From the NCBI RefSeq assembly GCF_900100165.1, contig NZ_FNEO01000005.1, positions 1-64,000 of the forward strand: 64,000 bases of DNA. Reading direction: 5' to 3'. The stretch is from Flavobacterium glycines (lineage in GTDB: Bacteria; Bacteroidota; Bacteroidia; Flavobacteriales; Flavobacteriaceae). The notes beneath the pieces are model-generated. The model saw only the letters and a program-made list of their open reading frames with translations, did no database searches and was not told where the DNA came from. Positions 3,124 through 25,929 of the stretch are shown one piece after another. Within the stretch, counting starts at the first letter, position 1. Each line of letters begins with the position of its first letter. The position numbers and the translations under genes were made by a program.

Positions 3124-3200
3124 GTAAAAATAACATTTTTCTTATAAAAAAACATTGTATCACTAACAATTACTTTAGAATAACTTCAAAATAATTTTGT

Positions 3201-3208
3201 TAGCTTTG
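3201..3208 (+). promoter_or_regulatory. Putative -7 element for the SGNH hydrolase/aldo-keto reductase pair
   Basis: TAGCTTTG matches TAnnTTTG and lies about 33 bases before the ATG at 3241. It would drive the hydrolase and the reductase, which follows after 10 bases. No clear -33 TTG was found. Confidence 0.45.
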
Positions 3209-3240
3209 TTTCTAAGATTCACAATATCAAAAATAGTTTA

Positions 3241-3885
3241 ATGAGTGGGAGCACAACAATGCAGGACTGGCCTTATTTAGCAAAATACCGACAAGAAAAT
3301 GCAAAACTTCCGCTTCCGGAATCCGGTGAAAATCGTGTAGTTTTTTTAGGTGATTCGATAACTGAATTTTGGAGTAACGAACAGCCTTTATTTTTTCAGA
3401 ATAAAAGTTACATCAATCGGGGAATTAGCGGACAAACCACACCACAAATGTTACTTCGTTTCAGAGCCGATGTGATTGCATTGCAACCCAAAATAGTTGT
3501 TATTTTAGCCGGCGGAAACGATATTGCAGGAAATACAGGAGCTTCAACCATCGAAATGATTACTGACAATATTTTTTCGATGATTGAATTAGCTCAAATT
3601 CACCAGATAAAAGTGATTCTTTGTTCGGTATTGCCAGCCAATTTTTTCTATTGGAATCCCAAAGAAAAACCTGCTGAGCGAATTATTGAATTAAATGCTA
3701 TTTTAAAAAAGTATGCGCTTTCGAACGGCATTCTATTTGTTGACTATTATTCGCCAATGGCAGACGAAGAAAAAGGCTTAAAAACCGAATTTTCAGAAGA
3801 CCGGGTACATCCCAATGCGGCTGGTTATGAAACCATGAGTCCGTTAATTGAAAAAGCAATTCAACTTACTTTAAAAACTCTATAA
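3241..3885 (+). CDS. SGNH/GDSL-family hydrolase (esterase/acetylhydrolase-like)
   Basis: This 214-residue protein has the SGNH blocks in order: block I GDSI with the nucleophile Ser39, block II Gly in RGISGQ (~62), block III GGND with Asn94, and block V D187-x-x-H190 in EDRVHPNAAGY. The length is typical of the single-domain lysophospholipase L1/platelet-activating-factor acetylhydrolase-like branch. There is no obvious signal peptide at this start, so it is probably cytoplasmic. It precedes an aldo/keto reductase by only 10 bases and is probably cotranscribed with it. The ester substrate cannot be told from sequence; deacetylation of sugars is one possibility for this branch. Confidence 0.88.
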   Translation: MSGSTTMQDWPYLAKYRQENAKLPLPESGENRVVFLGDSITEFWSNEQPLFFQNKSYINRGISGQTTPQMLLRFRADVIALQPKIVVILAGGNDIAGNTGASTIEMITDNIFSMIELAQIHQIKVILCSVLPANFFYWNPKEKPAERIIELNAILKKYALSNGILFVDYYSPMADEEKGLKTEFSEDRVHPNAAGYETMSPLIEKAIQLTLKTL

Positions 3886-3895
3886 AACTTATAAA

Positions 3896-4882
3896 ATGAA
3901 CTATCGTAAACTAGGAAAAACAAACTTTGAAATATCCGAAATCGCCCTTGGTACCTGGCAGGTGGGCGGAAAATGGGGTTCGCCTTTTAATGATAAAACT
4001 GCTGACGAACTGCTAAATACAGCCATTGACAAAGGCATCAATTTTATTGACACTGCCGATGTATACGAAAATGGACTCAGCGAAAAAGCTGTAGGCCGAT
4101 TGCTTCGTTCCCGTTCAGAGCGCATTTATGTAGCTACTAAATGTGGTCGTCATATCAATCCGCATGTTAACGAAGGTTACCAACCTAAGGTTTTACAAAA
4201 ATATGTAGAAGACAGTTTACAAAGATTAGGATTGGAAACACTGGATTTAATTCAATTGCACTGCCCTCCAACTGAGGTTTTTTATCGTCCGGAAATTTTT
4301 GAACTTTTTGACAAATTAAAACAAGAAGGAAAAATTCAAAATCTGGGTGTAAGTGTCGAAAAAGTAGAAGAAGGACTAAAAGCAATGGAATTTGAAAATG
4401 TGACTTCGATTCAGATTATTTTCAATCTTTTCAGACAACGTCCTTCAGAATTACTTTTCGAACAGGCAAAGAAAAAAGATGTCGGGATTATTGCCCGAGT
4501 TCCTTTAGCAAGTGGTTTACTAACGGGAAAATTCTCTGAAAAATCAATTTTTGACAGCAAAGACCATCGTTTTTTTAACCGTGAAGGTACTGCTTTTGAC
4601 AAGGGAGAAACTTTCTCCGGAATTAACTACGAATTGGGCTTAATTGCTGTAAACGAACTTAAAAAATTATTCCCTGAAGTTCAAAATTTAGCTCCTATTG
4701 CCCTGCAATGGATTTTGAATTTTAAAGAAGTAAGCTGTATTATTCCTGGAGCTTCAACTGAAAGTCATGTAGTTTCTAATCTTTCCACTTTAGATTTACC
4801 GGCATTGACTCCTGAAAAAATTGCTGCAATGAATGAAATTTACAATCATTACATCAAAAAAGAAGTGCACAATTTGTGGTAA
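3896..4882 (+). CDS. Aldo/keto reductase
   Basis: This 328-residue single-domain TIM-barrel oxidoreductase uses NAD(P)H to reduce carbonyls. The catalytic tetrad is visible: Asp52 and Tyr57 in DTADVYENG, Lys82 in VATKCGR and His122 in IQLHCPP. The C-terminal cofactor-binding segment IIPGAST is also present. It lies 10 bases downstream of the SGNH hydrolase and is followed by a hairpin terminator. The pairing hints at metabolism of a small acylated sugar or aldehyde, but that is inference only and the substrate is unknown. Confidence 0.92.
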   Translation: MNYRKLGKTNFEISEIALGTWQVGGKWGSPFNDKTADELLNTAIDKGINFIDTADVYENGLSEKAVGRLLRSRSERIYVATKCGRHINPHVNEGYQPKVLQKYVEDSLQRLGLETLDLIQLHCPPTEVFYRPEIFELFDKLKQEGKIQNLGVSVEKVEEGLKAMEFENVTSIQIIFNLFRQRPSELLFEQAKKKDVGIIARVPLASGLLTGKFSEKSIFDSKDHRFFNREGTAFDKGETFSGINYELGLIAVNELKKLFPEVQNLAPIALQWILNFKEVSCIIPGASTESHVVSNLSTLDLPALTPEKIAAMNEIYNHYIKKEVHNLW

Positions 4883-4911
4883 AATTTAGTTATCACATGA
4901 ATAACAAATAG

Positions 4912-4959
4912 AAAATTCAACATAGGTAATAACAATTGTCTGTGTTGAATTTTTATTTT
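4912..4959 (+). terminator. Rho-independent terminator after the aldo/keto reductase
   Basis: AAAATTCAACA (4912-4922) pairs with TGTTGAATTTT (4943-4953) and is followed by a T-rich run. It sits between the convergent reductase and porP-like genes and may serve both. Confidence 0.75.
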
Positions 4960-4983
4960 TAGCTCTCTAAAAAGAATATCCTT

Positions 4984-5988
4984 TTAATACTTACTTTCAT
5001 AGTTTGGACAGCCAAAACATTTGACTCCGAAATCAAATTGATAGGTTAAAGACAACTCATAAATCCCTCCTGTTTTCCCCATTTTAGAAGTTGTAAAATC
5101 ATGAGAAATACCAAATTTTAGATTTTCATATTGCAAACCTCCGTAAACATTAACAGAGCTAACCAAATGACTATCCTGTGCCTTTGCTAAAGGATTCATC
5201 GCGGTAGATACCCCTAAAAAAAGTGTTCTGAACATAATGGAAGAACCTAAATCCAATCGGTTAAATTGTCCCTGATTCATATAATTGGCCGACACCATAA
5301 ACTTTGTTTCATAAGGAAAACTAACCACATCCAAATAATCAACCACTAAAAATTCATATCCTGCACTTGCCGAAAAGAACAGATTCAGCGGCAGATTTTT
5401 TTCATCAACCAAAGAAATATTGGGTTTGTTAATATGTTTTAATGACAATCCAAACCAGGCTTCATCACTATTAAACAACATTCCGGCTGAAAAATCGAAA
5501 AAAGTAAATTTATCATGAAAATTGGAAGGGTCATTAGATATTGGATTAATAGTTCCTGTATCAATATTAATCTGATCTCCTAAAATCAAATTCTTAAACC
5601 CAAAAGATTTTGTCCCAAAACCAACTTCTATTGCCGGTCTAAAACTCCATCTGTCATTTAAAGTTACTTTATAAGCATAATTAAGATTTAACTGAGTAAA
5701 ATTATAATGTGTATTATTCTCTCTGTGACTTAAAATACTACCTCCTATACCACTTTTCATATTCTCACTCCAGGTGTTGAGAAAAGCATAATCGGTATCA
5801 ATTTTTAAATCTAAATCAGGCCATTGGGAACGATGAATGATACCCGCAGAAGTAGTTTCCTGAAAACCGGAATAAGCGGGATTTAATGTTGTGGGTACAA
5901 TAAAATATTGTGTAAATATGGGATCTTGTGCTGTAACTTTTGAGAAAAAGAAACAAATGCATATTGTAAATAGTATTCTAAATTTCAT
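4984..5988 (-). CDS. PorP/SprF-family type IX secretion membrane protein
   Basis: The 334-residue product has an N-terminal signal peptide (about 1-20, ending VTAQ). The family start DPIFTQYFIVPTTLNPAYSGF follows (shown here only to identify the family), then a beta-rich sequence predicted to form an outer-membrane barrel. PorP/SprF proteins are partners for T9SS cargo; in F. johnsoniae, SprF is required for secretion of SprB, whose gene lies just upstream. Here the gene begins 5 bases after the stop of the giant adhesin carrying a type B sorting domain, so it is very probably that adhesin's dedicated export partner. The C-terminal end carries two Cys residues in CFGCPN, possibly a disulfide. 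Confidence 0.92.
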   Translation of the reverse strand: MKFRILFTICICFFFSKVTAQDPIFTQYFIVPTTLNPAYSGFQETTSAGIIHRSQWPDLDLKIDTDYAFLNTWSENMKSGIGGSILSHRENNTHYNFTQLNLNYAYKVTLNDRWSFRPAIEVGFGTKSFGFKNLILGDQINIDTGTINPISNDPSNFHDKFTFFDFSAGMLFNSDEAWFGLSLKHINKPNISLVDEKNLPLNLFFSASAGYEFLVVDYLDVVSFPYETKFMVSANYMNQGQFNRLDLGSSIMFRTLFLGVSTAMNPLAKAQDSHLVSSVNVYGGLQYENLKFGISHDFTTSKMGKTGGIYELSLTYQFDFGVKCFGCPNYESKY

Positions 5989-5993
5989 CTTTA

Positions 5994-8900
5994 TTATTTT
6001 ATAAGTACAAATGCACCCTGATCTTTAATAATTGCTCCGTAAAATGTTTTAGCCGTAACTTTAAAATAATAATTACCATTTTCAGCCTCCTGATTTTTTA
6101 TCATTCCATCCCACCCCTTGATGGTTTCTCCTGTTTCTGAATAGATCAAACCTCCCCAGGTATCATAAACATCAAATACAATCGTTGTCAGGCCTTTAAA
6201 AACCGGAGAAAAATAATCATTGAATCCATCTTTATTAGGCGTAAAAGCATTAGGATACATTAAATTATATCCTTTTTTAATTTCCAGTTTTAGCGTATAA
6301 TTATAAGCACAGCCCAGAGGATAAGTTACTCTTTGGGTTACAATATAGCTTCCTTCTTTTTTAAAAATATGAACCGGATTAATTTCATCTGACAAAGAAC
6401 CATCACCAAAATCCCATGAAACAGCAATAAAACCATCCGTTGCTGTATTGGTAAATTGAACCGGATCTTCGATAGAATAAAAACCATAAGTAGTAAAACC
6501 ATAAGAATTCGTTGTAAACGAAGGAGTTCCTAATGAAGGTATATTAACATTAAAAGTATAATTAGCTTTACAGCCTAAAGCATCGGTAACATTTAATACA
6601 ATAGTCCCGTTTTGACTGGTGCTCATTATTTGATTGTTGGCTCCGCTTACAGTACCACTGGACCAATTTAACTGATACGGAGGAAGACCTCCCGAAACCT
6701 GAGCAGTAAAGTTTTGTTTTACCTCTTTGGTATCACAATTCACATCTGTTTTTGTAGTAACACCAATAACAATCGGTAGCGGTCTGTTTATGGAATATTG
6801 AGCTGTTTTTACACAGCCTCTGGCGTCAGTTACTGTTACCAAATAATTTCCGGCTGGCACATTGTTTAAATCTTCGGTTGTTGCACCATTTGACCATGAA
6901 TACGTAAATGGAGCCGTTCCTCCTGAAACCAAAAGATTGATGGCTCCGCTATTAGCGTTATCACAATCAAATGCATTGGTAACATTGGCTGAAAGTACCA
7001 AAAGTTGAGGCTCCTGAATTACAAATGTTCGAACAATTTGGCAGGGAGTCCCATCAGAAATAGTAGCGGTATAAGTTCCCGCTCCTAAATTATTCCTTGT
7101 CAACCCTGAAGTACTGCCATCACTCCAGACTAAAGTAATCGGTGCTTTTCCTCCAACCAAATTCAAAGCAATACTTCCGTCATGAGCGCCAAAACAACTG
7201 ATATCTTTCTTTACCGGATTAACCGTAAAAATAGGCGCATCAGGAATAGTAATGGTTTGTGACTTTTTACATCCTGCATTATCTGTTACCAAAATAGTAT
7301 AATCTCCCGCTGATAAATTCGTCTGATTTAAAGTTGTGGCTAAATTACTCCACGTATATTGGTATGGCGGAATTCCCCCTGAAATAGCAGCTGTAATCGA
7401 AGCATTGTTAGCGCCATAACACAATATAGGTGTTGTACTGTAAGTAACTTTAATTTCGGTTGATTGTAAAATGGTAACGGCCAGATTTTTAGAACAGAAT
7501 TGACTATCGGTTACTGTTAAATTGTAGGTTCCAGCTACAAGATTAGTTAGATTTTGAATATTACTGCTGAATCCATTAGGTCCTGCCCAGACAAAATTAT
7601 ATCCCGAAGCCGAAGGCACTCCTCCTGAAACATTCACGTTAATGGCTCCTGTTGCATCTCCAAAACAAATAACATCTGTTTTATTAATTAAACTCACAAC
7701 CAAAAGTGGTGGTTCTGTTATGGTGAAAGAAGCTGTTTTAGGACCGCAATTATTAGCATCTTTAACAGACACCTGATAATTCCCAGGAGCTAAATTTGAA
7801 ATGTCTTGTGTTATGGCAAAAGGAGCTCCGTTTTTTGTCCAGGAATAAGTATAATTTCCCGTTCCTCCTGCTACATTAATATCTACGCTTCCATTATTAC
7901 TACCCAAACAACTGATGTCTTTTTTACTAATTACAGAAACAACAATATCAGTGGGTTCCGTAATTGTATACGTTTTGAAAAAAGGACAATTCCCATTGTC
8001 AGTAATGGTTAAATCATAATTTCCCGGTTGCAAATTTGAAATAGTTGTTGCTGAAGAAGTAAAACTATTTGGTCCTACCCACGATATCGTATATGGCGCT
8101 CCTGATGTAAAAGGAATTCCTCCGGTAATATTAGTCGAAATAGAAGCATTATTTGCTCCAAAACATTTATTATCATTAATAACAACATTGGCATTAATAG
8201 CAGGATTTACAGTTACTTTTACTGTAAAAGGGCTTCCAACACAAGTTCCTGACTTAGGAGTCACAGTATATGTTACTACAGAAGGACTTACAGATGTATT
8301 GATTAATGTCTGGCTAATATTTGTTTGCGGAGTTGATTGAGCACTTGCCCCGGTAATAGTTCCGGATGGACTAATCGATGGAGTTGTCCAGGTATACGTA
8401 GTGCCAGACGGAATACTATTCCCTCCTGAATTAGCAGGAGTAACTGTAAATGTGGCGGAACTACAGATAATCGTACTTTCAGCTGCAATACTTGGTTTCT
8501 CATTAACAACCACAGTCGCAGGATTAGTAGTTACAACAGAGCAACCACCTGACAAAGAAGGAAAAGTAATTACACAATAATAATACACTGTTCCAGCAAC
8601 AGTAGCAGGAGGAGAATAAGTAGCACCCGTTTGTCCCGTTATAACTGTTCCTCCTGTATTCGAATTTGTTGTATTGGTCCACCATTGATAAGTAGGCGTT
8701 CCAACACCGTTACTTACTGTGAAAGATAAGGTTGTTGGAGTCCCACCTAAGCAAACCGTACTTGAAAGCGGCTGTGCTGTTATTGTCGGCGACACACTTA
8801 CCTGTACTGCAGCTATAGCACTCGTAACACTGCAACCCGCACCGCTTGACAATATACAATAATAATATTGAGTTCCTGAAGTAGTTGTTAATGGCGTATA

Positions 8901-11900
8901 AGCTGCATTCGTTTCACCTGAAATAGCCGTACCTGTAGTTGTATTATTCTCATTATTTTTATACCATTGGTATGAAAAAGCACCATTTCCTCCCGCACCT
9001 GCCACTACCAACGGAGCAGGAGTTTCACCCTGACACAATACCTGATTAGCTATTGGCTGTGAAGTTATTACAGGCTTGTCTAAAACCGTTACTTGTGCCA
9101 CATTACTGGTAACAGAACCACAACCACTACCGCTGATACTAACCTCAACATAGTAATAATAATTTCCAGCAACAGTATAAACTGCTGGTGTATAATTACT
9201 ATTTGTCGCTCCTGAAATTAAAGTTCCTCCTGCATTAGAATTAGCAGTATTTGTATACCACTGATAAGTTGCAGTTCCTGTCCCCCCCGAAGGAGAAACC
9301 GATAAAGGAGTACTAATTGTTGCCCCGGTACATAATGTTTGTGATGCTACCGGCTGTGATATTGTAGGCTGTGGTGTAACCGTTACTACAGCAATAGTCG
9401 AAGTCAAATTAGAACAACCTCCTGAAGTTAAAGTAACCACACAATAATAATACAAAGTTCCTACTGCACTGGCAGGCGGATCAAAAGTGCTATTAGTTGC
9501 ACCAGAAATCAAAGTGCTCCCTGTTGTTGAATTAGATGTATTAGAATACCATTGGTATGTTGGGGTTCCTACACTTCCACCTAATGCTACTGCTAACTGA
9601 GTTGGCGTACCTCCCAGACAAACGCTGCTGGATACAGGCTGCGTAGTAAAAACAGGCGCCGGATTAACATTGATTGTAAAATTTACCGGAGTCCCCGCAC
9701 AAGTCCCTATTTTAGGAGTTACCACATAAGTAATTGTTCCTGCCGATGCATTAGTAGTGGTTATAATTCTGGCGGGTATTATACTTGTAGTTCCCGAAGC
9801 TGCAAAACCTGAAATTCCTGCTGTTGCCGTAGCCGTCCAGGAAAACGTTGTTGAAGGATCATCTGATGTTATATTAATTGCTGCAGAGGATGTCCCTGAG
9901 CATATCGTCTGACTTAAATCGGTATTGGTAATTGTTGGGGTTTTATTAACCGAAAAAGTTTGAGTTGCAGTAGCCGAGGCACCACATTCATTGGTGACTA
10001 TTAATGAAACGGTATAAGTACCTGTAGTACTATAAGTAATTGTTCCGGGAATAGCAGTAGTTACTGTAGATGGTGAACCTCCAGGAAAACTCCAGGCATA
10101 AGTTAACGTACTCGATGCCGGTGCACAACTAGTAATTGTTGCTGTTGGGTTTATAGATGCCGTGCCGCAGCTATTTGGAATTGCCGCAATAGTTGCTGTT
10201 GGCGGTTTTTTAACTTCAACAGTTTTTGTTGTATTTACACTTCCACAGGAATTAGTAGCTGTTAATTTAATGGTATAAATACCCGGCATTGTAAAGTTAT
10301 ACGAAGCATTTTTAGTTGCCTGACTTGCAATAGTTGTAGTTGTTCCGCAATTTGCAGCTGCATAAGTAACGGTCCAAAGATAAGTTGGAGACAAACAAGC
10401 GTTGGTTTCATCCGTTGTATTGGTTGTTGTAATTGCCAAAGGCGTACAACCTGAAGAATTACTCAGGGTAAATGAAGGTGTTAAAGGTCCTTCAATACAA
10501 ATCGTTTTTGTAACTGGATTTGAAAAACCGCAATATCCTTGAGCGACTAAGGTTACAGTATAAGTTCCTGCTGTTGCATAAGCATGTGTTGGACTAATTG
10601 CAGAAGACGTTGTACCGTCACCAAAATCCCAGGCATAAATTACATTTTGAGTACAACTTTGACCATAACCTGTTGTTGAAGTGTTCGTAAATGTAACATT
10701 CGCATTCAAACAAGCTTTAGGTACTGAAGTAAAATTAGCTATCGGTTTAGAATAAACGGTGATGTTAGAAACCGAACTCTTGGTTTTTCCACAAGCATTC
10801 GAAACATTTAAAACAGCTGTGAATTCTGACTTAGGACAATTTGTTATTGTATAAGAATGAGGAATTGGGAAGTTAAGCGAAGCCGAAGGATTGGATGCAT
10901 TAAAATAAACAGAACTTTCTAAATTGGTTTGAGTATAACGTACAACAGCAGAACCATCTCCATAATCGATATCGTAAACAGTTCCTAATGAATTGGCTCC
11001 CCAATTTGAAATTGTAAAATTGATAGGAGTCGTTGGGGCGCATAAATTTTGGGTAGTTCCGGGGCTAACAATTCCACCCGAAGGATTGGTTACGTTTTTA
11101 ATAACATAGGTTACCGAATTACTACAGCCATTTGTTCCCAAAGCTGTTATAACCATATTATAAGCTCCCACTAAATTATAAGTATGAGAAGCCGGAAAGG
11201 TAGCATTGGGAGTTACAGCACTTCCGTCTCCCCAATCTATCGAATACGAACTTACACAAGTTGAAGTCGTCGTATTTCCAACCTTAATTGCAAATACAGG
11301 ATTGGTTGCTGCGTTCGAACAGTTGTTAAACATATCTACTGCAAAAGGATTATTTGCATCATTAAAACTAATATCCGGTTTTTGTTTTACAGTAATTGTT
11401 TTTGCTTTTGTAGCAGTACAACCATTTACTACAACTGTCAATACTACCGTAAATGTTGAAGTACCACAACCTAAGGCTGTAAATTGATGAATTGGATTTT
11501 GCAAATTTGACACTGCCGTTCCATCCCCAAAGTCCCAGGAATAAATTGCAGTTCCCATTCCTGAAATTGATGAATTAAACTGAATGGCTGTCTCAGAACA
11601 TGTATTATCATTATTAAATGTAAAATCGACCGTAGTTGGTGAACCTACTATTACCGTTGCCGTTCCTGATTGTGTCATTTCATCCACAGGAGTCGCTGTA
11701 TCGTGGACACTTACTAAATCATAAACAAATGTACCTGCTGTTGCCGTACTAACTGCCAATGTTACGGAGTCGTTTGTTCCTGAAGTTGAAATTGTTTGTG
11801 AAACACCATTTAATGTATAGGTGAAAGTATAGGGTGCTGTTCCTCCTGCACCCGTAAAAGTAATTACCGGACTTGTTGCTCCCTGACAAACTGATGTAGT

Positions 11901-12056
11901 ACCTGTTATGGTTGCGGTTGCTGAAGATAAAGCAGCTGATTTTTCATATTCGGCATTATGATAGGAATCCGGAGAAAGCTTTCTATTTTCAGCATTTAAT
12001 TTAGTAATCGAAGTAAATAAAATTGAAAATAAAATAATCGTGTAGAGTTGTTTCAT
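5994..12056 (-). CDS. Giant T9SS type B adhesin with PKD, Ig-like and SprB repeats
   Basis: This 2020-residue protein starts with a signal peptide (about 1-22). PKD-type domains follow, marked by WDFGDG, DWGDGS and DYGDGS signatures and spread over about 150-700. Next come PKD-like modules and four Ig-like repeats built on TYQWY/TYQWW and YYYC (about 830-1260). Seven SprB-like repeats of about 75 residues (CFGxNNGSI ... GG ... AGNYxxxVTD ... GC) occupy about 1330-1860. After one more PKD domain, the last ~85 residues form the gliding-motility-associated type B sorting domain beginning YPNAFTPNKDGFND. The protein should be exported by the T9SS and held at the cell surface as an adhesin. It shares a transcript with the PorP/SprF-like gene. 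Its ligand is unknown. Confidence 0.95.
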   Translation of the reverse strand: MKQLYTIILFSILFTSITKLNAENRKLSPDSYHNAEYEKSAALSSATATITGTTSVCQGATSPVITFTGAGGTAPYTFTYTLNGVSQTISTSGTNDSVTLAVSTATAGTFVYDLVSVHDTATPVDEMTQSGTATVIVGSPTTVDFTFNNDNTCSETAIQFNSSISGMGTAIYSWDFGDGTAVSNLQNPIHQFTALGCGTSTFTVVLTVVVNGCTATKAKTITVKQKPDISFNDANNPFAVDMFNNCSNAATNPVFAIKVGNTTTSTCVSSYSIDWGDGSAVTPNATFPASHTYNLVGAYNMVITALGTNGCSNSVTYVIKNVTNPSGGIVSPGTTQNLCAPTTPINFTISNWGANSLGTVYDIDYGDGSAVVRYTQTNLESSVYFNASNPSASLNFPIPHSYTITNCPKSEFTAVLNVSNACGKTKSSVSNITVYSKPIANFTSVPKACLNANVTFTNTSTTGYGQSCTQNVIYAWDFGDGTTSSAISPTHAYATAGTYTVTLVAQGYCGFSNPVTKTICIEGPLTPSFTLSNSSGCTPLAITTTNTTDETNACLSPTYLWTVTYAAANCGTTTTIASQATKNASYNFTMPGIYTIKLTATNSCGSVNTTKTVEVKKPPTATIAAIPNSCGTASINPTATITSCAPASSTLTYAWSFPGGSPSTVTTAIPGTITYSTTGTYTVSLIVTNECGASATATQTFSVNKTPTITNTDLSQTICSGTSSAAINITSDDPSTTFSWTATATAGISGFAASGTTSIIPARIITTTNASAGTITYVVTPKIGTCAGTPVNFTINVNPAPVFTTQPVSSSVCLGGTPTQLAVALGGSVGTPTYQWYSNTSNSTTGSTLISGATNSTFDPPASAVGTLYYYCVVTLTSGGCSNLTSTIAVVTVTPQPTISQPVASQTLCTGATISTPLSVSPSGGTGTATYQWYTNTANSNAGGTLISGATNSNYTPAVYTVAGNYYYYVEVSISGSGCGSVTSNVAQVTVLDKPVITSQPIANQVLCQGETPAPLVVAGAGGNGAFSYQWYKNNENNTTTGTAISGETNAAYTPLTTTSGTQYYYCILSSGAGCSVTSAIAAVQVSVSPTITAQPLSSTVCLGGTPTTLSFTVSNGVGTPTYQWWTNTTNSNTGGTVITGQTGATYSPPATVAGTVYYYCVITFPSLSGGCSVVTTNPATVVVNEKPSIAAESTIICSSATFTVTPANSGGNSIPSGTTYTWTTPSISPSGTITGASAQSTPQTNISQTLINTSVSPSVVTYTVTPKSGTCVGSPFTVKVTVNPAINANVVINDNKCFGANNASISTNITGGIPFTSGAPYTISWVGPNSFTSSATTISNLQPGNYDLTITDNGNCPFFKTYTITEPTDIVVSVISKKDISCLGSNNGSVDINVAGGTGNYTYSWTKNGAPFAITQDISNLAPGNYQVSVKDANNCGPKTASFTITEPPLLVVSLINKTDVICFGDATGAINVNVSGGVPSASGYNFVWAGPNGFSSNIQNLTNLVAGTYNLTVTDSQFCSKNLAVTILQSTEIKVTYSTTPILCYGANNASITAAISGGIPPYQYTWSNLATTLNQTNLSAGDYTILVTDNAGCKKSQTITIPDAPIFTVNPVKKDISCFGAHDGSIALNLVGGKAPITLVWSDGSTSGLTRNNLGAGTYTATISDGTPCQIVRTFVIQEPQLLVLSANVTNAFDCDNANSGAINLLVSGGTAPFTYSWSNGATTEDLNNVPAGNYLVTVTDARGCVKTAQYSINRPLPIVIGVTTKTDVNCDTKEVKQNFTAQVSGGLPPYQLNWSSGTVSGANNQIMSTSQNGTIVLNVTDALGCKANYTFNVNIPSLGTPSFTTNSYGFTTYGFYSIEDPVQFTNTATDGFIAVSWDFGDGSLSDEINPVHIFKKEGSYIVTQRVTYPLGCAYNYTLKLEIKKGYNLMYPNAFTPNKDGFNDYFSPVFKGLTTIVFDVYDTWGGLIYSETGETIKGWDGMIKNQEAENGNYYFKVTAKTFYGAIIKDQGAFVLIK

Positions 12057-16905: not shown

Positions 16906-17298
16906 GTGAAAAAAATAATTGCGATATCATTCCTATTTGTATTTCTCTCTGCCAATACAGAGTTAGGACAGTTATTGAAATTACCCAACTTAATTGAACA
17001 CTTCGCAGAACATCGCAATCACAAAGGCGAAAACAATGTAACATTTCTTGATTTCGTAAAAAGTCATTATAGTGATAATTGTCAACATTCTGATACTGAC
17101 AAACACGACGAGCATAAAAACTTACCTTTCAAAACAATCAATACAAACATCAATACGGTTATTGCTTTTGAGAATCAACCTTATATTTTTTTCAAAAAAC
17201 CAATCAATATTAGCATAAAAAATACTGTTCCTCTTTACAAAGAGTTTTATACCTCTAACGTTTTTACTTGTATTTGGCTTCCTCCTAAATTGAGTTAA
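16906..17298 (+). CDS. Small exported His-rich protein heading the metal efflux operon
   Basis: The 130-residue frame begins with GTG; no ATG lies near enough to preserve the signal-peptide-like start (KKIIAISFLFVFLSANTELG). The middle is rich in His and acidic residues (HFAEHRNHKGEN about 28-40 and SHYSDNCQHSDTDKHDEHK about 53-71), suggesting transient binding of a divalent metal in the periplasm. The last third is hydrophobic. It is the first gene of a putative operon with the fused CzcA-type pump (122 bases downstream) and its adaptor. Similar small proteins of unknown function head heavy-metal RND operons in Bacteroidetes. A metal-binding or sensing role is inferred. Confidence 0.65.
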   Translation: MKKIIAISFLFVFLSANTELGQLLKLPNLIEHFAEHRNHKGENNVTFLDFVKSHYSDNCQHSDTDKHDEHKNLPFKTINTNINTVIAFENQPYIFFKKPINISIKNTVPLYKEFYTSNVFTCIWLPPKLS

Positions 17299-17420: not shown

Positions 17421-20400
17421 ATGTTGAATAAAATCATAGAATTTTCTATAAAAAATAAACTCATAGTAGCTTTATTTACCCTTGCGCTTATTGGTTATGG
17501 TATCTATCAATTTACCAAATTACCGATTGATGCAGTTCCCGATATCACAGACAATCAGGTACAACTAATCACTTCTGCCCCATCTTTGGGTGCCACCGAT
17601 ATTGAACGTTTAATCACATTTCCAATTGAACAGGCTAATAGTAATATTCCGGGGCTAAAAGAAATTAGAAGTTTCTCCCGTTTTGGTTTATCAGTAGTTA
17701 CCATCGTTTTTGATGACGCAACCGATGTTTATTGGGCAAGACAACAAGTAGCCGAAAGACTGAGTACTGTAAAAGACCAAATTCCAAACGGAATTGGAGA
17801 ACCCTTTCTGGCACCCGTAACCACAGGTTTAGGCGAAATTTATCAATATGCGATAAGAGCCAAACCCGGATTTGAGAAAAAATACAATGAAACCGAATTA
17901 AGAACGATACAGGACTGGATTGTACGCCGTCAATTGTTAAGTGTTGAAGGTGTTGCCGAAGTGAGCAGTTTTGGCGGAAAACTAAAGCAATTTGAAATTG
18001 CAATTGACCCAAACAAACTACAATCTTACAATATTACCATTGCTGATGTTTTCACCGCTTTAGAAAAAAACAACCAAAATACAGGAGGTGCCTATATCGA
18101 AAAAGGTCCAACTGTTTTATATATCCGAAGCGAAGGGCTAATCAATACAATCGAAAATATAAAAGACATTGCTATAAAAAACACCAATAACGGAAGTCCT
18201 TTATTTATCCGTGATGTTGCAGATGTACGTATTGGCAGTGCTATTCGTTACGGAGCAATGACCTATAACGGTAAAGGAGAAGTTTCCGGTGCTGTAGTAA
18301 TGATGTTAAAAGGTGCTAACAGTAATGTTGTTATTCAAAATATTAAAGAAAGAATTGCACAAATTGAAAAAACATTACCTGACGGAGTGATAATAGAACC
18401 GTTTTTAGATCGTACCAAAATGGTTAATAATTCGATTGCTACCGTTGGTAAAAACTTAATTGAAGGAGCCTTAATTGTTCTGTTTGTTTTAATATTCTTT
18501 TTAGGAAATGTAAGAGCCGGTTTAATTGTGGCTTCTGTAATTCCATTGGCAATGTTATTTGCTGTAATACTGATGAATATATTTGGCGTAAGCGGAAACT
18601 TAATGAGTTTAGGCGCATTAGATTTTGGTTTAATTGTCGATGGCGCTGTAATTATTGTCGAAGCCTGTTTGTTTAGTTTACACAGCCGAAAGCAGGGAGA
18701 AATTACACAAAATCAAATGGATGACGTTGTTTTAGAAACTTCAACACGAATGCGAAATGTTGCCGTTTTTGGCGAGTTAATTATCTTAATTGTTTACATT
18801 CCAATCTTCACATTAAGAGGTATCGAAGGAAAAATGTTTTTGCCAATGGCGCAAACAATTGCTTTTGCTCTGTTTGGTGCTTTCGTTTTATCATTGACTT
18901 ATGTTCCTATGATGACATCTTTATTTTTGAATAAAAAGATCATTCATAAACAAACTTTTTCAGACAGAATGGTGGAAAAATTGGAAAATTTCTATCAGCC
19001 GCTTTTAGAAAAAGCATTAGCGATCCCAAGAAAAATAATTGGAGTCACACTAACATTATTCGTTTTGGCTATCATTACACTTTCGTTTATGGGTGGGGAG
19101 TTTATTCCGTCACTAGAGGAAGGAGATTTTGCGGTAGAAACCCGTGTTTTGCCCGGAAGTAATTTACAGACTTCAATGACAGCCATCTCACAGGGTGCAA
19201 AAATATTATTAGAGAAATTTCCGGAAGTAGAAAAAGTAGTAGGTAAAACAGGAAGTTCCGAAGTACCTACTGACCCAATGCCAATTGATGCCAGCGATAT
19301 GATGGTTATTCTAAAAGATAAATCCGAATGGACATCTGCAGCAACTTTCGATGAATTATCAGAAAAAATGGCAAAGGAGCTTGAAGCTGTTCCGGGTGTT
19401 TCTTATGGTTTTCAATATCCTGTTCAAATGCGTTTCAACGAATTAATGACCGGTGCCAGACAGGATGTAGTTTGTAAAATATTTGGCGAAAACCTCGATA
19501 CTTTAGCGTTATATGCTAACAAATTAGGAAAAATTGTAAATACCGTCAAAGGTACTTCCGACCTTTATATAGAAAGCGTTACCGGAATGCCTCAGATTGT
19601 AATTGATTATAACCGGGCTGCCATTGCTCAATACAATCTCAATATCGAAGATATTAATCGAATTGTAAACACAGCATTTGCAGGACAAAGCACAGGATTA
19701 ATTTATGAAGATGAAAAGCGTTTTGACTTAGTGGTTCGTCTGGCAGGAGAAAAAAGAAAGGATTTAGCAGACGTTCAAAATTTATTGATTCCTACGCCAA
19801 ACGGTTCACAAATTCCTTTATCGCAATTGGCAAAAGTAGCCATTACAGAAGGGCCAAATCAAATACAAAGAGAAGATGCCAAACGCAGAATTGTAGTTGG
19901 GTTTAATGTGCGTGGTCGTGATGTGCAAAGTATCGTAAAAGAATTACAGGACAAAGTAGGCGCACAAATTAAGTTCCCGGCAGGCTATTACCCTACTTAT
20001 GGCGGTGCTTTTGAAAACTTAAATGCAGCCAAACAACGATTAATGATTGCTGTTCCTATTTCATTATTATTAATTTTTATTTTGTTGTATTTCGCTTTCA
20101 AATCTCTTAAACAAGGATTATTGATTTACTCTGCAATTCCTTTGTCAATGATTGGTGGAATATTCTTTTTAGCATTGCGTGGAATGCCTTTCAGTATCAG
20201 TGCGGGAGTTGGATTTATTGCTTTATTTGGTGTGGCGGTTTTAAATGGCTTGGTTTTAATAGCCGAATTCAACCGTATAAAAAAATCAGGCGAAACCGAC
20301 TTAAAAGCAATTGTATTACAGGGAACAAAAATACGTTTGCGACCTGTGTTAATGACAGCACTTGTAGCATCATTAGGATTTTTACCAATGGCAATAAGTA

Positions 20401-21749
20401 ACGGTTCAGGAGCAGAAGTACAAAAGCCATTAGCAACTGTTGTTATTGGAGGACTTATTGTTGCTACATTCCTAACCTTATTTGTTTTACCTATCTTATA
20501 CATTATGTTTGAAAAAGGAATTAAATTAAAACCGGGAAAAATAAAATCGATTACTTCTATCATTGTGTTGGGATTGTTTCTCTCCTTTCAAAATACAAAT
20601 GCTCAGGAAAAAATTACAATTGACAAAGCCGTTGAAACAGCATTGCAAAACAATTTGAAAGTCAAAAACCAAAAACTCAATTCAGATTATTTGCAAAAAA
20701 TGGCTAAAACAGCTTATGATATTCCCAATACAGGAATTGTCAGCGAATACGGTCAGTTTAACACCAATATGAATGATATAAAAATTGGTGTTTCCCAAAG
20801 CATAAAATTCCCGACAGTTTACAAAAGACAAAAACAGCTTTTGGCAGAACAAGCCAAAGCTGGGGAATGGAACGAAGCTTTGCAAAAAAAGGAACTGACC
20901 AAGCAGGTTACAACCGTATTTTATGAAATGGTTTACTTAAAAGAAAAAGAAAGATTACTGCTTAAAAGCGACAGTATTTACTCCGAATTTTTAAGAAAAT
21001 CAACACTTCGTTTTGACAGAGGAGAAAGCAATGTTTTAGAAAAAGCAACTGCCGAAAACCAATCAGCTCAAATCAAAATACAATTGCAGGAAGTCGTGAG
21101 CGATTATAAAATGCTTCAGGCTCAATTCAGGTATTTATTAAATGACGACAAAGATTTTGTGCCTGTTTGGAATCAATACAAAATGACTTTTGAAGAAAAT
21201 GCAGATAAAAATAGCATTTCAAATCTGCCAGGCATAAAACTAAAAGAGCAGGAAGTAAATAGTAGCAAAGCCGAAATTGCATTAGAAAAATCAAAAAAAA
21301 TGCCTGAACTTATCGGTGGTGTATATTGGCAGACTTTCAAAACCAATACTGCTTTACAAGACAGCTACAATGGTGTTTATGGTCAGTTTGGTGTTGCTTT
21401 GCCCTTATTCAATTCGTCTATAAAAAACAGACAAAAGGCATTAGAAATCAATACTCAAATTGCCGAAAATAATTTGAATAGCGAAAAATTGAAACTGCAA
21501 ACTCAATATCAGGAATTGCTTCAGGAGTACAAAAAAAACAAAGGAACAATTACTTACTATGAAAACCAGGCATTGAAAAATGTAGATATAGTAACTAATG
21601 CTGCCAATAAAAAATTCATCAATGGTGATATCAATTATTTAGAATGGGTGATGCTAAACAATCAGAATATCGAAATTCAAAGTAATTATATTGAAGCTGT
21701 CAGAAAGTTGAACAATAGCATTATTGAACTCAATTCATTAACTAAATAA
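17421..21749 (+). CDS. Heavy-metal RND efflux pump (CzcA/CusA type) fused to TolC-like outer-membrane factor
   Basis: The 1442-residue protein has two parts. Residues 1 to about 1035 are a complete HME-family RND pump with 12 membrane segments, an N-terminal segment ending LPIDAVPDI, and the proton-relay signature D401-FGLIV-D407-GAVIIV-E414. From about 1040 a hydrophobic stretch (SITSIIVLGLFLSF) ends NTNAQ. It looks like a signal peptide and leads into ~380 residues of TolC/CzcC-like outer-membrane factor with long coiled coils (KAVETALQNNLKVKNQKL). RND pumps end in the cytoplasm, so this extra segment would carry the TolC part across the inner membrane. The adaptor gene follows. Exported metal is not determined; Co/Zn/Cd or Cu/Ag are the family substrates. 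Confidence 0.93.
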   Translation: MLNKIIEFSIKNKLIVALFTLALIGYGIYQFTKLPIDAVPDITDNQVQLITSAPSLGATDIERLITFPIEQANSNIPGLKEIRSFSRFGLSVVTIVFDDATDVYWARQQVAERLSTVKDQIPNGIGEPFLAPVTTGLGEIYQYAIRAKPGFEKKYNETELRTIQDWIVRRQLLSVEGVAEVSSFGGKLKQFEIAIDPNKLQSYNITIADVFTALEKNNQNTGGAYIEKGPTVLYIRSEGLINTIENIKDIAIKNTNNGSPLFIRDVADVRIGSAIRYGAMTYNGKGEVSGAVVMMLKGANSNVVIQNIKERIAQIEKTLPDGVIIEPFLDRTKMVNNSIATVGKNLIEGALIVLFVLIFFLGNVRAGLIVASVIPLAMLFAVILMNIFGVSGNLMSLGALDFGLIVDGAVIIVEACLFSLHSRKQGEITQNQMDDVVLETSTRMRNVAVFGELIILIVYIPIFTLRGIEGKMFLPMAQTIAFALFGAFVLSLTYVPMMTSLFLNKKIIHKQTFSDRMVEKLENFYQPLLEKALAIPRKIIGVTLTLFVLAIITLSFMGGEFIPSLEEGDFAVETRVLPGSNLQTSMTAISQGAKILLEKFPEVEKVVGKTGSSEVPTDPMPIDASDMMVILKDKSEWTSAATFDELSEKMAKELEAVPGVSYGFQYPVQMRFNELMTGARQDVVCKIFGENLDTLALYANKLGKIVNTVKGTSDLYIESVTGMPQIVIDYNRAAIAQYNLNIEDINRIVNTAFAGQSTGLIYEDEKRFDLVVRLAGEKRKDLADVQNLLIPTPNGSQIPLSQLAKVAITEGPNQIQREDAKRRIVVGFNVRGRDVQSIVKELQDKVGAQIKFPAGYYPTYGGAFENLNAAKQRLMIAVPISLLLIFILLYFAFKSLKQGLLIYSAIPLSMIGGIFFLALRGMPFSISAGVGFIALFGVAVLNGLVLIAEFNRIKKSGETDLKAIVLQGTKIRLRPVLMTALVASLGFLPMAISNGSGAEVQKPLATVVIGGLIVATFLTLFVLPILYIMFEKGIKLKPGKIKSITSIIVLGLFLSFQNTNAQEKITIDKAVETALQNNLKVKNQKLNSDYLQKMAKTAYDIPNTGIVSEYGQFNTNMNDIKIGVSQSIKFPTVYKRQKQLLAEQAKAGEWNEALQKKELTKQVTTVFYEMVYLKEKERLLLKSDSIYSEFLRKSTLRFDRGESNVLEKATAENQSAQIKIQLQEVVSDYKMLQAQFRYLLNDDKDFVPVWNQYKMTFEENADKNSISNLPGIKLKEQEVNSSKAEIALEKSKKMPELIGGVYWQTFKTNTALQDSYNGVYGQFGVALPLFNSSIKNRQKALEINTQIAENNLNSEKLKLQTQYQELLQEYKKNKGTITYYENQALKNVDIVTNAANKKFINGDINYLEWVMLNNQNIEIQSNYIEAVRKLNNSIIELNSLTK

Positions 21750-23032: not shown

Positions 23033-23064
23033 AACAGCCTTTCAAATGAAAGGCTGTTGATTTT
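23033..23064 (+). terminator. Rho-independent terminator of the RND efflux operon
   Basis: A perfect 12-base-pair stem (AACAGCCTTTCA at 23033-23044 with TGAAAGGCTGTT at 23047-23058) and a two-base loop precede a T-rich tail. The loop is shorter than usual, so the top pairs are probably open. Confidence 0.8.
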
Positions 23065-23108: not shown

Positions 23109-23957
23109 ATGAAATGGATTACCAGAGAACGTCCAAAAATTGACCGAATAGCCTCTCCTTGGCTAATAAAAACTTTTGTCGATAAAGATGCTGAATTTAT
23201 TTATGTTCCATTTAGCGAAGTTTTGGATAAAGCAAAAGAATTAAATGCCATCCCATTTGACATTCCTAATGTCGAATTTACACACTATGAGGAAAAAAGC
23301 ACGTTTGATTACATTGTGAAAAAATATCAAATCACAGACCCTGCTATCCTGATTATTGCTGACATTGTTCGTGGCGCAGACACCGACAGACACGATATTG
23401 CAAAAGAATCGGCGGGACTTTGGGCAATTTCAGCGGGACTTTCCTATAACATTACCGATGATTATAAGTTATTAGAAAACGGAATAATTATTTACGATGC
23501 ATTATACAGTTGGGCAACACATTTATACAAACAAAATCATTTACAAAATAGCCCTTTCGAAAATCTGTTGCACGAAGTGTATCTTAAATTTTTAAAGGAG
23601 AAAAAAACAACTAATAAAAAAGCACCGGCTTGGGTCAAAGATTTAAAAGCAATTATTCAGGATCAGATTGATACTCAATTTACTTTTGATTTAAAAAAAA
23701 TTTCTAATGATTTAGAAATCAACCCCTCTTATTTATCAAGAGAGTTTTCCAAGTATTTTGATGATCTTAATTTTGGTGATTATGTTAGAAAATTACGAAT
23801 CGAAAAGGCAATTAATCTAATTGAGAACTCATCCTACACGCTAACGGAAATAGCCTATATGACCGGATTTTCAGACCAAAGTCATTTTACGAGAATTTTC
23901 AAAATACATACAGGAAAAAATCCATCTTCTTACCGTAAAAAAAACACAAAAAAGTAA
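23109..23957 (+). CDS. Chromate-resistance ChrB domain fused to an AraC-type DNA-binding domain
   Basis: This is a 282-residue two-domain protein. Residues 1 to about 135 match the chromate-resistance exported/ChrB family (MKWITRERPKIDRIASPWLI, FDIPNVEFTHY, IVRGADTDRHDIA, GIIIYDALYSWA). Residues about 190-278 are a double helix-turn-helix of the AraC family (SYLSREFSKYF, YTLTEIAYMTGFSDQSHFTRIFK). In proteobacteria, ChrB acts as a chromate-responsive regulator of chrA. Here the ChrB domain probably senses chromate and the AraC domain binds DNA. It lies 80 bases upstream of chrA in the same direction. Sensor-regulator coupling in one chain is inferred. Confidence 0.85.
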   Translation: MKWITRERPKIDRIASPWLIKTFVDKDAEFIYVPFSEVLDKAKELNAIPFDIPNVEFTHYEEKSTFDYIVKKYQITDPAILIIADIVRGADTDRHDIAKESAGLWAISAGLSYNITDDYKLLENGIIIYDALYSWATHLYKQNHLQNSPFENLLHEVYLKFLKEKKTTNKKAPAWVKDLKAIIQDQIDTQFTFDLKKISNDLEINPSYLSREFSKYFDDLNFGDYVRKLRIEKAINLIENSSYTLTEIAYMTGFSDQSHFTRIFKIHTGKNPSSYRKKNTKK

Positions 23958-24037
23958 TTCAGATACAAAAAGTAAACAGCATACTATTTCTATTTTATTA
24001 GCATTTATAGTTTTGTTTTCTTTAATAGAAAACAGAA

Positions 24038-25204
24038 ATGAAACATACTCCAACATACTCGTTAAAAGAATTAGTATTGTATTTCCTAAAGTTAGGAACA
24101 ATTGGATTTGGTGGTCCAGTTGCTTTAGTCGGCTATATGCATAAGAATTTAGTCGAAGATCGAAAGTGGATATCAGAAGAAGAATACAAAGAAGGTTTAG
24201 CTTTAGCACAATTGGCTCCTGGTCCATTAGCCGCACAATTAGCAATTTATCTTGGTTTTGTACATTACAGTTTTCTGGGAGCAACTTTAGTGGGATTTGC
24301 CTTTATTCTACCATCTTTTATAATGGTTGTATTATTGGGAATCGTTTATAAATTATACGGAGGATTGTCTTGGATACAAGCTGTCTTTTATGGTGTAGGT
24401 GCCGCCGTTATTGGTATTATTGTAATGAGTTCTTATAAACTTACTACAAAATCTATTGGAAAATTTAATTTATCCTCTTTTAAAACCAATTGGTTATTAT
24501 GGCTGTTTTTTATAGTTGCGGTAGTGATAACATTGGTTACACAACAGGAACAGGTTTTATTATTTGTATTTGCCGGACTTTTGTATATGTTTTTCAAAGC
24601 TCCTCCAAAATGGTTCAATAACAAAACCGCCAATTCTGTTGTTCTCTTGCAAATGGGCTTTTGGAGCTATGATAATTCAACCCTAATAAAAATTGCCCTC
24701 TTTTTTGCGGAAGCCGGAGCATTTGTATTTGGTAGCGGACTGGCAATTGTACCCTTTTTGCATTCGGGAGTTGTGGTAGAAAATCAATGGCTGTCAGAAC
24801 ATCAATTTGTAGATGCCGTTGCCGTTGCAATGATTACTCCTGGTCCTGTTGTTATTACAGTTGGTTTTATTGGTTATTTAGTTGCTGGTTTTCCAGGTGC
24901 TATGGTTGCTGCTTTAGCCACATTTTTACCTTGTTATTTATTTACAATTGCTTTAGCACCATCCTTTAAAAAAATTGCACAAAATCAATCTATCAAAGCT
25001 TTTGTAGATGGTATTACAGCCGCTGTTGTGGGGGCTTTGGTTGGAGCTGTAGGAGTAATTGCTTCCAGAAGTATTTTAGATATTCCAACAACACTTATAG
25101 CTATTGCAACAATTTTTGCTTTACTTTATATCAAGAAAATCCAAGAACCTTATATTATTGCTGTTGCGGCAGTTGTAGGGGTTGTTATAAAATTACTACT
25201 ATGA
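24038..25204 (+). CDS. chrA: Chromate transporter ChrA (two-domain form)
   Basis: This 388-residue membrane protein is the long form of the CHR family, with two homologous halves. The N half carries GFGGPVALVGYMH and LAPGPLAAQLA; the C half carries FGSGLAIVPFLH and MITPGPVVITVGF, which are the paired CHR signatures. About ten to twelve membrane segments are evident. The family exports chromate from the cytoplasm. Its stop overlaps the start of the superoxide dismutase gene by four bases (ATGA), so the two are translationally linked. The upstream ChrB-AraC gene supports the chromate assignment. Confidence 0.93.
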   Translation: MKHTPTYSLKELVLYFLKLGTIGFGGPVALVGYMHKNLVEDRKWISEEEYKEGLALAQLAPGPLAAQLAIYLGFVHYSFLGATLVGFAFILPSFIMVVLLGIVYKLYGGLSWIQAVFYGVGAAVIGIIVMSSYKLTTKSIGKFNLSSFKTNWLLWLFFIVAVVITLVTQQEQVLLFVFAGLLYMFFKAPPKWFNNKTANSVVLLQMGFWSYDNSTLIKIALFFAEAGAFVFGSGLAIVPFLHSGVVVENQWLSEHQFVDAVAVAMITPGPVVITVGFIGYLVAGFPGAMVAALATFLPCYLFTIALAPSFKKIAQNQSIKAFVDGITAAVVGALVGAVGVIASRSILDIPTTLIAIATIFALLYIKKIQEPYIIAVAAVVGVVIKLLL

Positions 25205-25929
25205 ACAGAAAAGATTTTTTAAAATCGGGTACATTGTTTGGTGCAGCTGCGTTAGTGCTTCCAACTACCAATGCGTTTGCTGAAAATTTAACAGATAATT
25301 CGATTGACAAATTAGTAGATGCCAATGGTAATTATATTCAACAAACCTTACCTTATAGCGAAAGTTTTTTAGAACCTTATATGGATGCAGAAACCTTGCA
25401 TCTCCATTATACTTTTCATCACGGCGGAGCAGTGAAAGGAGCTAACAAAGATTTACAAATGATAAAAAAAGCTTTGGATGAAAATAATCTGGAGACTGTT
25501 GATTTTTGGACAAAAAAACTATCTTATCATTTTTCATCTCATATTTTGCATTCAATTTTTTGGACAAATCTAACCAATAAAAGTAATTTGCCGAAAGGTG
25601 ATTTATTAAAGCGAATTGAAAAAAGCTTTGGCAGTTTCGAAAGATTAAAAGTATTAATTGCTGCAACTGCCAAAAATGTTGATGGCAATGGTTGGGGTAT
25701 TGTGGCATACCAGCCTTATAGTGATAGTCTTGTAGTTTTACAATGCGAAAACCACGAAAAATTAACACAATGGGGTGCGATTCCAATATTAGTCATTGAT
25801 GTTTGGGAACATGCTTATTATTTAAAATACAAAAACAAACGTACCGATTTTGTAGATGCTCTCTTCAATATTATTAATTGGGACAATGTAGCGTTGCGAT
25901 TAAATGATGCCTTAAAATTAACATTGTAA
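25201..25929 (+). CDS. Exported Fe/Mn superoxide dismutase of the chromate cluster
   Basis: The 242-residue protein starts with an export signal with Tat-like features (MNRKDFLKSG, then a hydrophobic Ala/Leu run ending NAFA, about residue 27). The usual SOD fold follows. All four metal ligands are visible: His69 in HYTFHH, His117 in ILHSIFW, Asp200 and His204 in DVWEHAYYLKY. It overlaps chrA by four bases. Chromate reduction in cells generates superoxide, and a superoxide dismutase (ChrC) is part of the chrBACF cluster in Ochrobactrum. An exported SOD here would remove superoxide outside the cytoplasm. Whether it uses iron or manganese cannot be read safely. Confidence 0.9.
   Translation: MNRKDFLKSGTLFGAAALVLPTTNAFAENLTDNSIDKLVDANGNYIQQTLPYSESFLEPYMDAETLHLHYTFHHGGAVKGANKDLQMIKKALDENNLETVDFWTKKLSYHFSSHILHSIFWTNLTNKSNLPKGDLLKRIEKSFGSFERLKVLIAATAKNVDGNGWGIVAYQPYSDSLVVLQCENHEKLTQWGAIPILVIDVWEHAYYLKYKNKRTDFVDALFNIINWDNVALRLNDALKLTL

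Follow-up and report, generated by a model that had tools for sequence, protein, structure and literature searches.

The gene at positions 23109–23957 (forward strand) of the window, the whole stretch of 64,000 nucleotides analysed here, encodes a genuine fusion of a ChrB_C domain with an AraC-type DNA-binding domain. On balance, the protein probably controls transcription of a chr-type operon as a one-component regulator that responds to an oxyanion. In relatives, the gene found most regularly beside it codes for a small predicted outer-membrane barrel, not for the chromate pump. The regulator is divided as follows:

23109..23957 (+): regulator gene, ChrF-type ChrB_C domain plus AraC-type DNA-binding domain, 282 aa (open reading frame, Pfam, relatives)
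23115..23513 (+): ChrB_C domain, putative oxyanion/metal sensor, residues 3–135 (PF09828, E 1.6e-47; pLDDT 85–97 in the block of residues 1–130)
23526..23693 (+): helical linker from sensor to DNA-binding domain, approximately residues 140–195 (low-confidence model, block pLDDT ~46–61)
23703..23939 (+): AraC-type double helix-turn-helix (HTH), residues 199–277 (PF12833, E 7.8e-20; PF00165, E 1.1e-12; best Foldseek matches are AraC-type DNA-binding domains)

The frame starts with ATG. The matches to HTH_18 (PF12833, residues 199–277; 71.4 bits against a curated cut-off of 33.6) and HTH_AraC (PF00165, residues 239–277; 48.1 bits against 26.6) exceed the Pfam thresholds, as does the match to ChrB_C. 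NCBIfam gives 27 matches, and the 25 listed are all AraC-type models, each below its own cut-off. ChrB_N was not matched in the window protein by Pfam, nor in its first 151 residues at E≤10, the N-terminus being ChrB_C; a ChrB-type control protein (L161) gives PF20229 in the same profile search. None of the Pfam sensor families of AraC-type proteins was matched either. The regulator is the single PF09828 match in its own genome. The original prediction of a ChrB domain joined to a double AraC HTH, of a type different from described ChrB regulators, is thus borne out: both domains lie in one frame, ChrB_N has no match, and the AraC HTH is at the C-terminus.

The predicted model is confident for residues 1–130 and weak in the linker and the first HTH. 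Foldseek returned three matches at E≤0.001, two AraC-type and one titled as of unknown function, all belonging to the HTH half by length; one of them, 3lsg (E 8.9e-5), has the AraC DNA-binding fold and matches the C-terminal part of the model. ToxT superimposes on the same part by VIA with a Z-score of 12.6 and an rmsd of 1.5 over 65 residues, where the first HTH is of low confidence.

The fusion and its gene neighbours

The search for this domain order in other genomes, proposed with the original prediction, was run. A scan of genome contigs located relatives in titled genome records, and the best 80 of 271 loci carry the same fusion, with best segments 68–91% identical over nearly the whole query. 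Most of their hosts are Flavobacterium; the others include Pedobacter, Emticicia, Chryseolinea and Chitinophagaceae. Of the 249 genomes in the genus sample, 43 match the regulator at E≤1e-60, most in one open frame of 282–316 aa. The best copy is broken in two of these (G615 and G810); in G585 the match stops at residue 255, in G755 one TAG is counted within the match, and in G753 and G767 extra copies are broken or partial. PF09828 was found in 3 of 199 genomes of the family sample and 19 of 392 of the phylum sample. Among the latter 19, G389 encodes a ChrB-type protein followed by chrA (L108), the copy in G552 is broken and that in G487 partial; the remaining 16, own genome included, have open frames of 282–355 aa, with ORFs of 280–304 aa matching the window protein. 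On plasmids, 865 of 72,556 records match some part of the window protein and two cover at least 80% of it, Pedobacter pA27BH1 and a Spirosoma oryzicola plasmid, both from Bacteroidota. Coverage outside Bacteroidota was that of the plasmid collection and of the pattern-based scan of genome contigs. Judging from these sequences, the fusion is common to many Bacteroidota.

That the fusion is an artefact of sequencing or assembly, or the gene dead, can to all intents be ruled out, because the fusion is read in one frame in relatives: the same fused protein occurs in the best 80 of the 271 loci and in most of the 43 genus genomes with a match, and invariant residues are found all along it. These single frames exclude the case, raised with the original prediction, of an error that joined genes separate in relatives. 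Nothing in the window speaks for such an artefact; a few relatives (G615, G810) have broken copies. The regulator without chrA showed no significant sign of relaxed selection (broken best copies in 2 of 13 genomes versus 0 of 30, p 0.086).

The surroundings of the regulator in the window comprise the following:

23033..23058 (no strand): perfect inverted repeat of 12 bp, located after the RND efflux genes and before the regulator, a terminator-like hairpin or possible operator (repeat search)
23958..24037 (+): gap where most relatives carry a gene for a predicted barrel of ~166 aa, absent here (neighbour comparison)
24038..25204 (+): chrA, chromate transporter family, 388 aa, two Chromate_transp stretches (PF02417, E 1.8e-79; TIGR00937, E 2e-114)
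25201..25929 (+): Fe/Mn superoxide dismutase (SOD) in a chrC-like position (PF02777, E 5.3e-33; PF00081, E 5.4e-15)

The chrA and SOD genes overlap by 4 bases, and the N-terminus of the SOD resembles a signal peptide by eye. A second chromate-transporter gene of the genome lies on another contig. Upstream of the regulator, at a distance of 164 bases, are two efflux genes, one for a membrane-fusion protein and one in which an RND pump is joined to an outer-membrane-factor domain. The latter (17421–21749) encodes one polypeptide of 1442 aa, with the RND pump (ACR_tran) at residues 5–1030 and OEP, best stretch, at 1263–1441. Just upstream of it, 16906–17298 encodes a 130-aa protein with a His-rich stretch (by eye) and no Pfam family at E≤0.001. 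Further away, 5994–12056 on the reverse strand encodes an adhesin-like protein of 2020 aa, with many repeated domains and, by eye, a secretion-type C-terminus.

The repeat at 23033–23058 is not among the terminators listed by a terminator scan. Its arm is peculiar to the window, being missing from all 93 upstream stretches of the other loci; perfect hairpins of at least 10 bp are present in 5 of the 94. A shared operator could not be named from the upstream stretches of the 93 loci and the window, where promoter-like blocks recur within clades (by eye), nor from a comparison by eye with one orphan barrel-chrA promoter. Sigma-70 and terminator scans gave no more hits than shuffled sequences.

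Among the best 80 of the 271 loci, a gene for a predicted outer-membrane barrel of ~166 aa follows the regulator in 69, chrA lies within 1.5 kb after the regulator in 38, and a SOD gene is downstream in 14. These counts include a shortened barrel frame (L067), a broken chrA (L088) and a broken SOD frame (L043), and L071, with a chrA truncated at the end of its contig, is not part of the chrA count. SOD was accordingly rejected as a constant partner. Barrel homologues also follow the regulator in the distant loci L100, L107 and L109 and in Spirosoma (L187). The regulator is followed by chrA without a barrel gene, as in the window, at L013, L016, L045, L052 and L080. A barrel model found no match in the own genome at E≤1e-10, nor in the six frames of the window at E≤10; the window genome has apparently lost this gene. 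At L027 (6001–8488) regulator, barrel and SOD stand in order with no chrA between them, and the genome (G819) has a chromate-transporter match elsewhere. The place of the barrel after the regulator is taken by a DUF2490 protein at L089 (6912–7679, Pfam) and by a similar one, by eye, at L091 (6927–7676).

Pfam assigned none of four barrel proteins above its cut-off, the best match being OMP_b-brl at 14.4 bits against 28.7, and a sequence search for a solved relative gave three matches at E 0.5–0.67, of no use. The model of the L012 protein (pLDDT 91.5) has a signal-like helix and a beta barrel. Its best structural matches are a designed barrel (Z 16.2) and the OprF N-domain, NspA, OmpA and OmpW (Z 14–16).

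Regulator and barrel also coincide across the 249 genus genomes: 43 have the regulator, 46 have the barrel and 39 have the two together (Fisher p 1e-33, uncorrected for relatedness). Seven genomes have the barrel without the regulator, six of them with chrA, and at the five such loci inspected (L118–L121 and L123) the barrel adjoins chrA. In the seventh, G718 (L122:3397–3909), the barrel is flanked by a TonB receptor and a siroheme-synthase/TauE gene, and a gene resembling sulfite reductase was recognised by eye upstream; the cluster as a whole is sulfur-assimilation-like. At L119 a DUF2490 protein (3437–4192, Pfam) is found beside barrel and chrA. The genome of L123 (G582) has no regulator match, and at 3139–5299 of that locus are a truncated barrel, a chrA split in two frames and an intact-looking SOD frame behind. 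The Pedobacter plasmid carries a Tn3 transposase and a recombinase, followed by regulator, barrel, chrA and ChrF. DUF1259 genes are annotated near ChrB_C or chrA genes on plasmids of Aminobacter, Rhodococcus, Sphingomonas and Pedobacter (L155, L160, L163 and L093).

A chromate-transporter match is present in 30 of the 43 regulator genomes of the genus sample versus 71 of the 206 others (Fisher p 2.9e-5, uncorrected for relatedness). The 13 regulator genomes with no such match are all 99–100% complete, and 12 of them have the barrel. In a second set, 40 genomes taken from the 41 loci without chrA in reach among the best 80 of 271 (L071 left out), 20 have no PF02417 match (their completeness is not given), and one of the other 20 has only broken PF02417 pieces. 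The chrA label requires 21 changes on the regulator tree, at least 16 of them forced, compared with a mean of 28.9 after shuffling; 2 of 500 shuffles were as low. The link to chrA has therefore often been gained or lost, yet is clustered.

The original prediction of a chromate sensor for chrA and the exported SOD gene is plausible in the window, where the order regulator-chrA-SOD parallels chrB-chrA-SOD on a P. putida plasmid. As a general statement it is too narrow for the family, because the barrel is more constant than chrA or SOD and many genomes, including half of those without a neighbouring chrA, have no match to a chromate transporter.

The constancy of the barrel gene bears on another reading, in which the regulator senses something other than chromate, either an oxyanion that occurs naturally in sulfur metabolism, such as sulfate or sulfite, or the sulfur or oxidative stress that chromate causes. 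Chromate resistance would then be one use of an older sulfur/envelope response, with the barrel gene as its constant output. We regard this as unlikely, if far from negligible. In its favour, no partner is as constant as the barrel (69 of the best 80 of 271 loci, and 39 of the 43 regulator genomes), 12 genus genomes combine regulator and barrel with no chrA (the regulator being broken in G615 and G810), and the barrel of G718 has the neighbours described above. Rrf2 regulators are near in L118 and L089 (Pfam) and L121 (by eye); rhodanese is another fusion partner of ChrB_C (L156) and is encoded after the regulator in L106. However, the links to sulfur come from few loci, 38 of the best 80 of 271 loci, as well as the window, link the regulator directly to chrA, and a chr cluster is found in a plasmid/transposon setting. 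The gene neighbourhoods give arguments for chromate as the ligand and for a sulfur oxyanion alike.

Kinship, conserved residues and possible fold of the sensor half

Residues 1–135 of the window protein are 66–67% identical to two single-domain proteins of Bacteroidota, 54–58% to three proteobacterial ones (ChrF-type) and 39% to one of Rhodococcus. Identity to four rhodanese-fused proteins (Pfam-checked in L156, otherwise labelled by annotation or likeness) is 43–50%, and to eight ChrB-type proteins (ChrB_N Pfam-checked in L161, otherwise by length and annotation) 27–38%. The eight form one clade in a tree of 40 ChrB_C sequences, with support of 98/93. The AraC-fused, rhodanese-fused and five of the six single-domain sequences are on the other side, while the Rhodococcus sequence joins the ChrB side. 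Thus, by tree and identities, the window ChrB_C is closer to ChrF and the rhodanese-fused proteins than to classical ChrB, and the sensor domain, a ChrB domain in the original prediction, is better described as ChrF-like than as ChrB-like. Single-domain sequences from Chryseolinea and Pedobacter nest among the AraC-fused ones, so that the fused label takes two changes on the tree; the HTH may have been lost in these two.

In O. tritici ChrB, R180, R187 and H229 are reported to be required for chromate induction and C213 is dispensable, while the N-terminal R18 and R23 are thought to bind DNA (PMC3817168). With R180 as anchor, positions 175, 180, 182, 187, 195, 196, 213, 229, 241 and 244 have the same letters in P. 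putida ChrB; relative to the published O. tritici positions, H258 is shifted by one residue, and no match is seen for R18, R23 and R252. ChrB R180, R187 and H229 align with R6, R13 and H59 of the window protein. The latter are invariant in all of 98 sequences (two of them ChrF; 93 of the 98 distinct), a count that leaves out seven loci whose start fell outside the search pattern (L077, L103 and L108–L112). Across the broader set of ChrB_C sequences, R6, D12, R13, D51, H59 and D91 are invariant in 40 of 40, and the position of ChrB H258, R88 in the window protein, is R in 31 and H in 9. Cysteines are found at position 16 in 85 and at position 64 in 71 of the 98 sequences; both are serine in the window protein, and tabulating the two cysteines against chrA presence over these sequences gave no clear pattern.

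The conservation of R6, R13 and H59 agrees with a role in oxyanion sensing and with the original prediction of a possible chromate sensor. The same residues occur in ChrF, reported as an enzyme and not a regulator, and therefore they do not single out sensing. For O. tritici ChrF, reported to be a dimer, SOD activity and an Mn content of 1.0 per mole have been described (PMC4779226); its identity as a ChrB_C protein is inferred from a published primer encoding MKWITRE (translated by eye), the same letters as in the window protein. These data bear on a further reading, in which ChrB_C is mainly enzyme-like and the window protein is a redox- or metal-controlled regulator that senses superoxide or Mn and not chromate. 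The Mn-SOD report, the higher identity of the window ChrB_C to the three proteobacterial ChrF-type proteins than to the eight ChrB-type ones and the SOD gene within the operon would fit. Against these stand the lack of a Sod_Fe match to ChrB_C in seven proteins (hmmscan to E 10, where filters drop most weak matches), the fact that one report was found for the SOD activity of ChrF (PMC4779226), and the lack of both cysteines in the window copy. We judge this reading improbable.

A free-standing ChrB_C protein is not new, since Arthrobacter FB24 is reported to encode the two parts of ChrB, N- and C-terminal, in separate genes that chromate induces along with the remainder of the cluster (PMC2751784).

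A search by sequence for a solved relative of ChrB_C gave two matches at E 0.64–0.79, of no use. By structure, a second pass of VIA over Foldseek's list contains 12 rows, of 50 listed, that start at model residue 1. All 12 are proteins that we take to be of the DHH type, with Z-scores of 7.8–4.8. The best is PAP phosphatase 8a8k (Z 7.8, rmsd 3.8, 128 aligned residues), and the other 11 are PggH, three NrN entries, four of Cdc45 or RecJ-Cdc45 (some assigned by title), two family II pyrophosphatases and DhhP. We treat the resemblance of ChrB_C to DHH phosphoesterases as a structural lead, because Z-scores of this size can be background; since VIA was a second look at Foldseek's list, nothing follows from the absence of other folds.

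The ChrB_C model consists of a strand (residues 2–6) with R6–R13 behind it, then helix, strand and helix, a strand (48–50) followed at once by D51, H59, a helix (65–72) with T/S-x-D/E, and a helix (78–92) with D91-T92 at its end. This order of elements agrees with the DHH domain as we assume it to be. The DHH motifs and ligands used here are those we presume for family II pyrophosphatase, apart from a consensus of 20 NrnA-type sequences. On that assumption, D12, D51, H59 and D91, the four invariant in 40 of 40 sequences, would be the second D of motif I and motifs II, III and IV. The H and first D of motif I correspond to R6 and K10, and therefore at most one metal site would remain.

Homology to DHH proteins could not be established by sequence: hhalign of ChrB_C against the 20 NrnA-type sequences gave probabilities of 0.5% and 0.03–0.1%, not significant, and hmmscan found no DHH match in seven ChrB_C proteins. 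The best Viterbi local alignment places ITRERPKIDRIAS on TTHKNPDGDAMGS in the expected register, at a probability of 0.1%; the rest of it departs from the proposed placing of the motifs, and two global hhalign runs aligned nothing.

Tentatively, and with the balance somewhat against it, we propose that ChrB_C and ChrF are converted DHH phosphoesterases that kept one metal site and turned the second into an oxyanion pocket, and that in Bacteroidota this unit was coupled to an AraC domain, controlling an outer-membrane barrel for the handling of chromate or sulfur oxyanions at the envelope. If so, D12, D51, H59 and D91 would form the retained four-ligand metal site, and the second site would have been swapped for basic residues, R6 and often K10, with R13. 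This would account for the 1.0 Mn per mole of ChrF and for the chromate-blind ChrB mutants of R180, R187 and H229. Should the resemblance hold, it would offer a testable structural model of chromate and Mn binding by ChrB and ChrF.

Proposed mechanism and comparison with known systems

Returning to the reading as an oxyanion-responsive regulator, the N-terminal ChrF-type ChrB_C domain would be the sensor. Its ligand is probably chromate or an oxyanion like it, and a metal may be bound as well. The ligand pocket would be formed by R6, R13, D12, D51, H59 and D91, and the C-terminal AraC double HTH would bind an operator near the gene's own promoter. Most AraC proteins activate transcription when ligand-bound. 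By analogy, the ligand-bound regulator probably activates rather than represses. Its target in the window would be its own transcription unit, regulator-chrA-SOD, presumably a single unit, with efflux and the removal of chromate-made superoxide as output. In most relatives, the barrel gene would be the first target, and chrA comes after it, lies elsewhere or is missing.

This reading is favoured by the domains, the order regulator-chrA-SOD, the conservation of the two arginines and the histidine, the enrichment of chromate transporters, the adjacency of barrel and chrA, and the cluster on the Pedobacter plasmid. Against it, chrA is missing from about half of the relatives' loci, 20 of 40 such genomes and 13 of the 43 regulator genomes of the genus sample lack any match to a chromate transporter, the conserved triad also occurs in ChrF, no operator was identified, and the window protein is without the cysteines (positions 16 and 64) found in most relatives. 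The same sensor family on an AraC DNA-binding domain in a different phylum is a natural domain swap relative to the ChrB_N/ChrB_C plan of the well-studied ChrB regulator, suggesting a ready-made part for biosensors. That an unnamed outer-membrane barrel so regularly accompanies the regulator suggests that the handling of chromate or sulfur oxyanions includes a step at the envelope.

Public annotation already labels such proteins "chromate resistance protein ChrB domain-containing". No description of the fusion or its use was found in the open-access literature searched, beyond which most subscription papers lie.

ChrB of O. tritici (TnOtChr) and Cupriavidus metallidurans resembles the window protein in having a ChrB_C domain with the residues required for induction and in being encoded by the first gene of a chr operon with chrA and SOD. 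The chr set of O. tritici consists of chrB, chrA, chrC and chrF (PMC3817168), chrC being an Fe-SOD (PMC4779226); for vanadate tolerance in O. tritici, chrA and, slightly, chrC mattered and chrF did not (PMC7039435). P. putida pTmex-577K has the order chrB-chrA-SOD-ChrF, parallel to that in the window. However, ChrB combines ChrB_N with ChrB_C and binds DNA with its N-terminal half, whereas the window protein has no ChrB_N and a C-terminal AraC HTH, and its ChrB_C belongs to another subclade, with 27–38% identity to the eight ChrB-type sequences.

Outside the fused proteins, the closest relative of the sensor half is ChrF, a single ChrB_C domain of ~150 aa (54–67% identity for five of the six single-domain sequences, 39% for that of Rhodococcus). 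ChrF of P. putida has the N-terminal motif MKWITRERPKIDRIA, the same as in the window protein. ChrF has no HTH and is reported as an Mn-SOD and not a regulator (PMC4779226), in contrast to the 282-aa window protein with its HTH. The rhodanese-ChrB_C ("sulfurtransferase/chromate resistance") proteins, which are on the same side of the ChrB_C tree and are encoded upstream of chrA, have an N-terminal rhodanese partner and no HTH (Pfam-checked in L156), whereas the HTH of the window protein is C-terminal. One-component regulators of the AraC/XylS type share with the window protein a C-terminal double HTH and an N-terminal sensor, and it differs from them in that the sensor is ChrB_C. By its domains, the window protein is thus assigned to the AraC family and is neither a ChrB in domain plan nor a ChrF, although its sensor half is ChrF-like.
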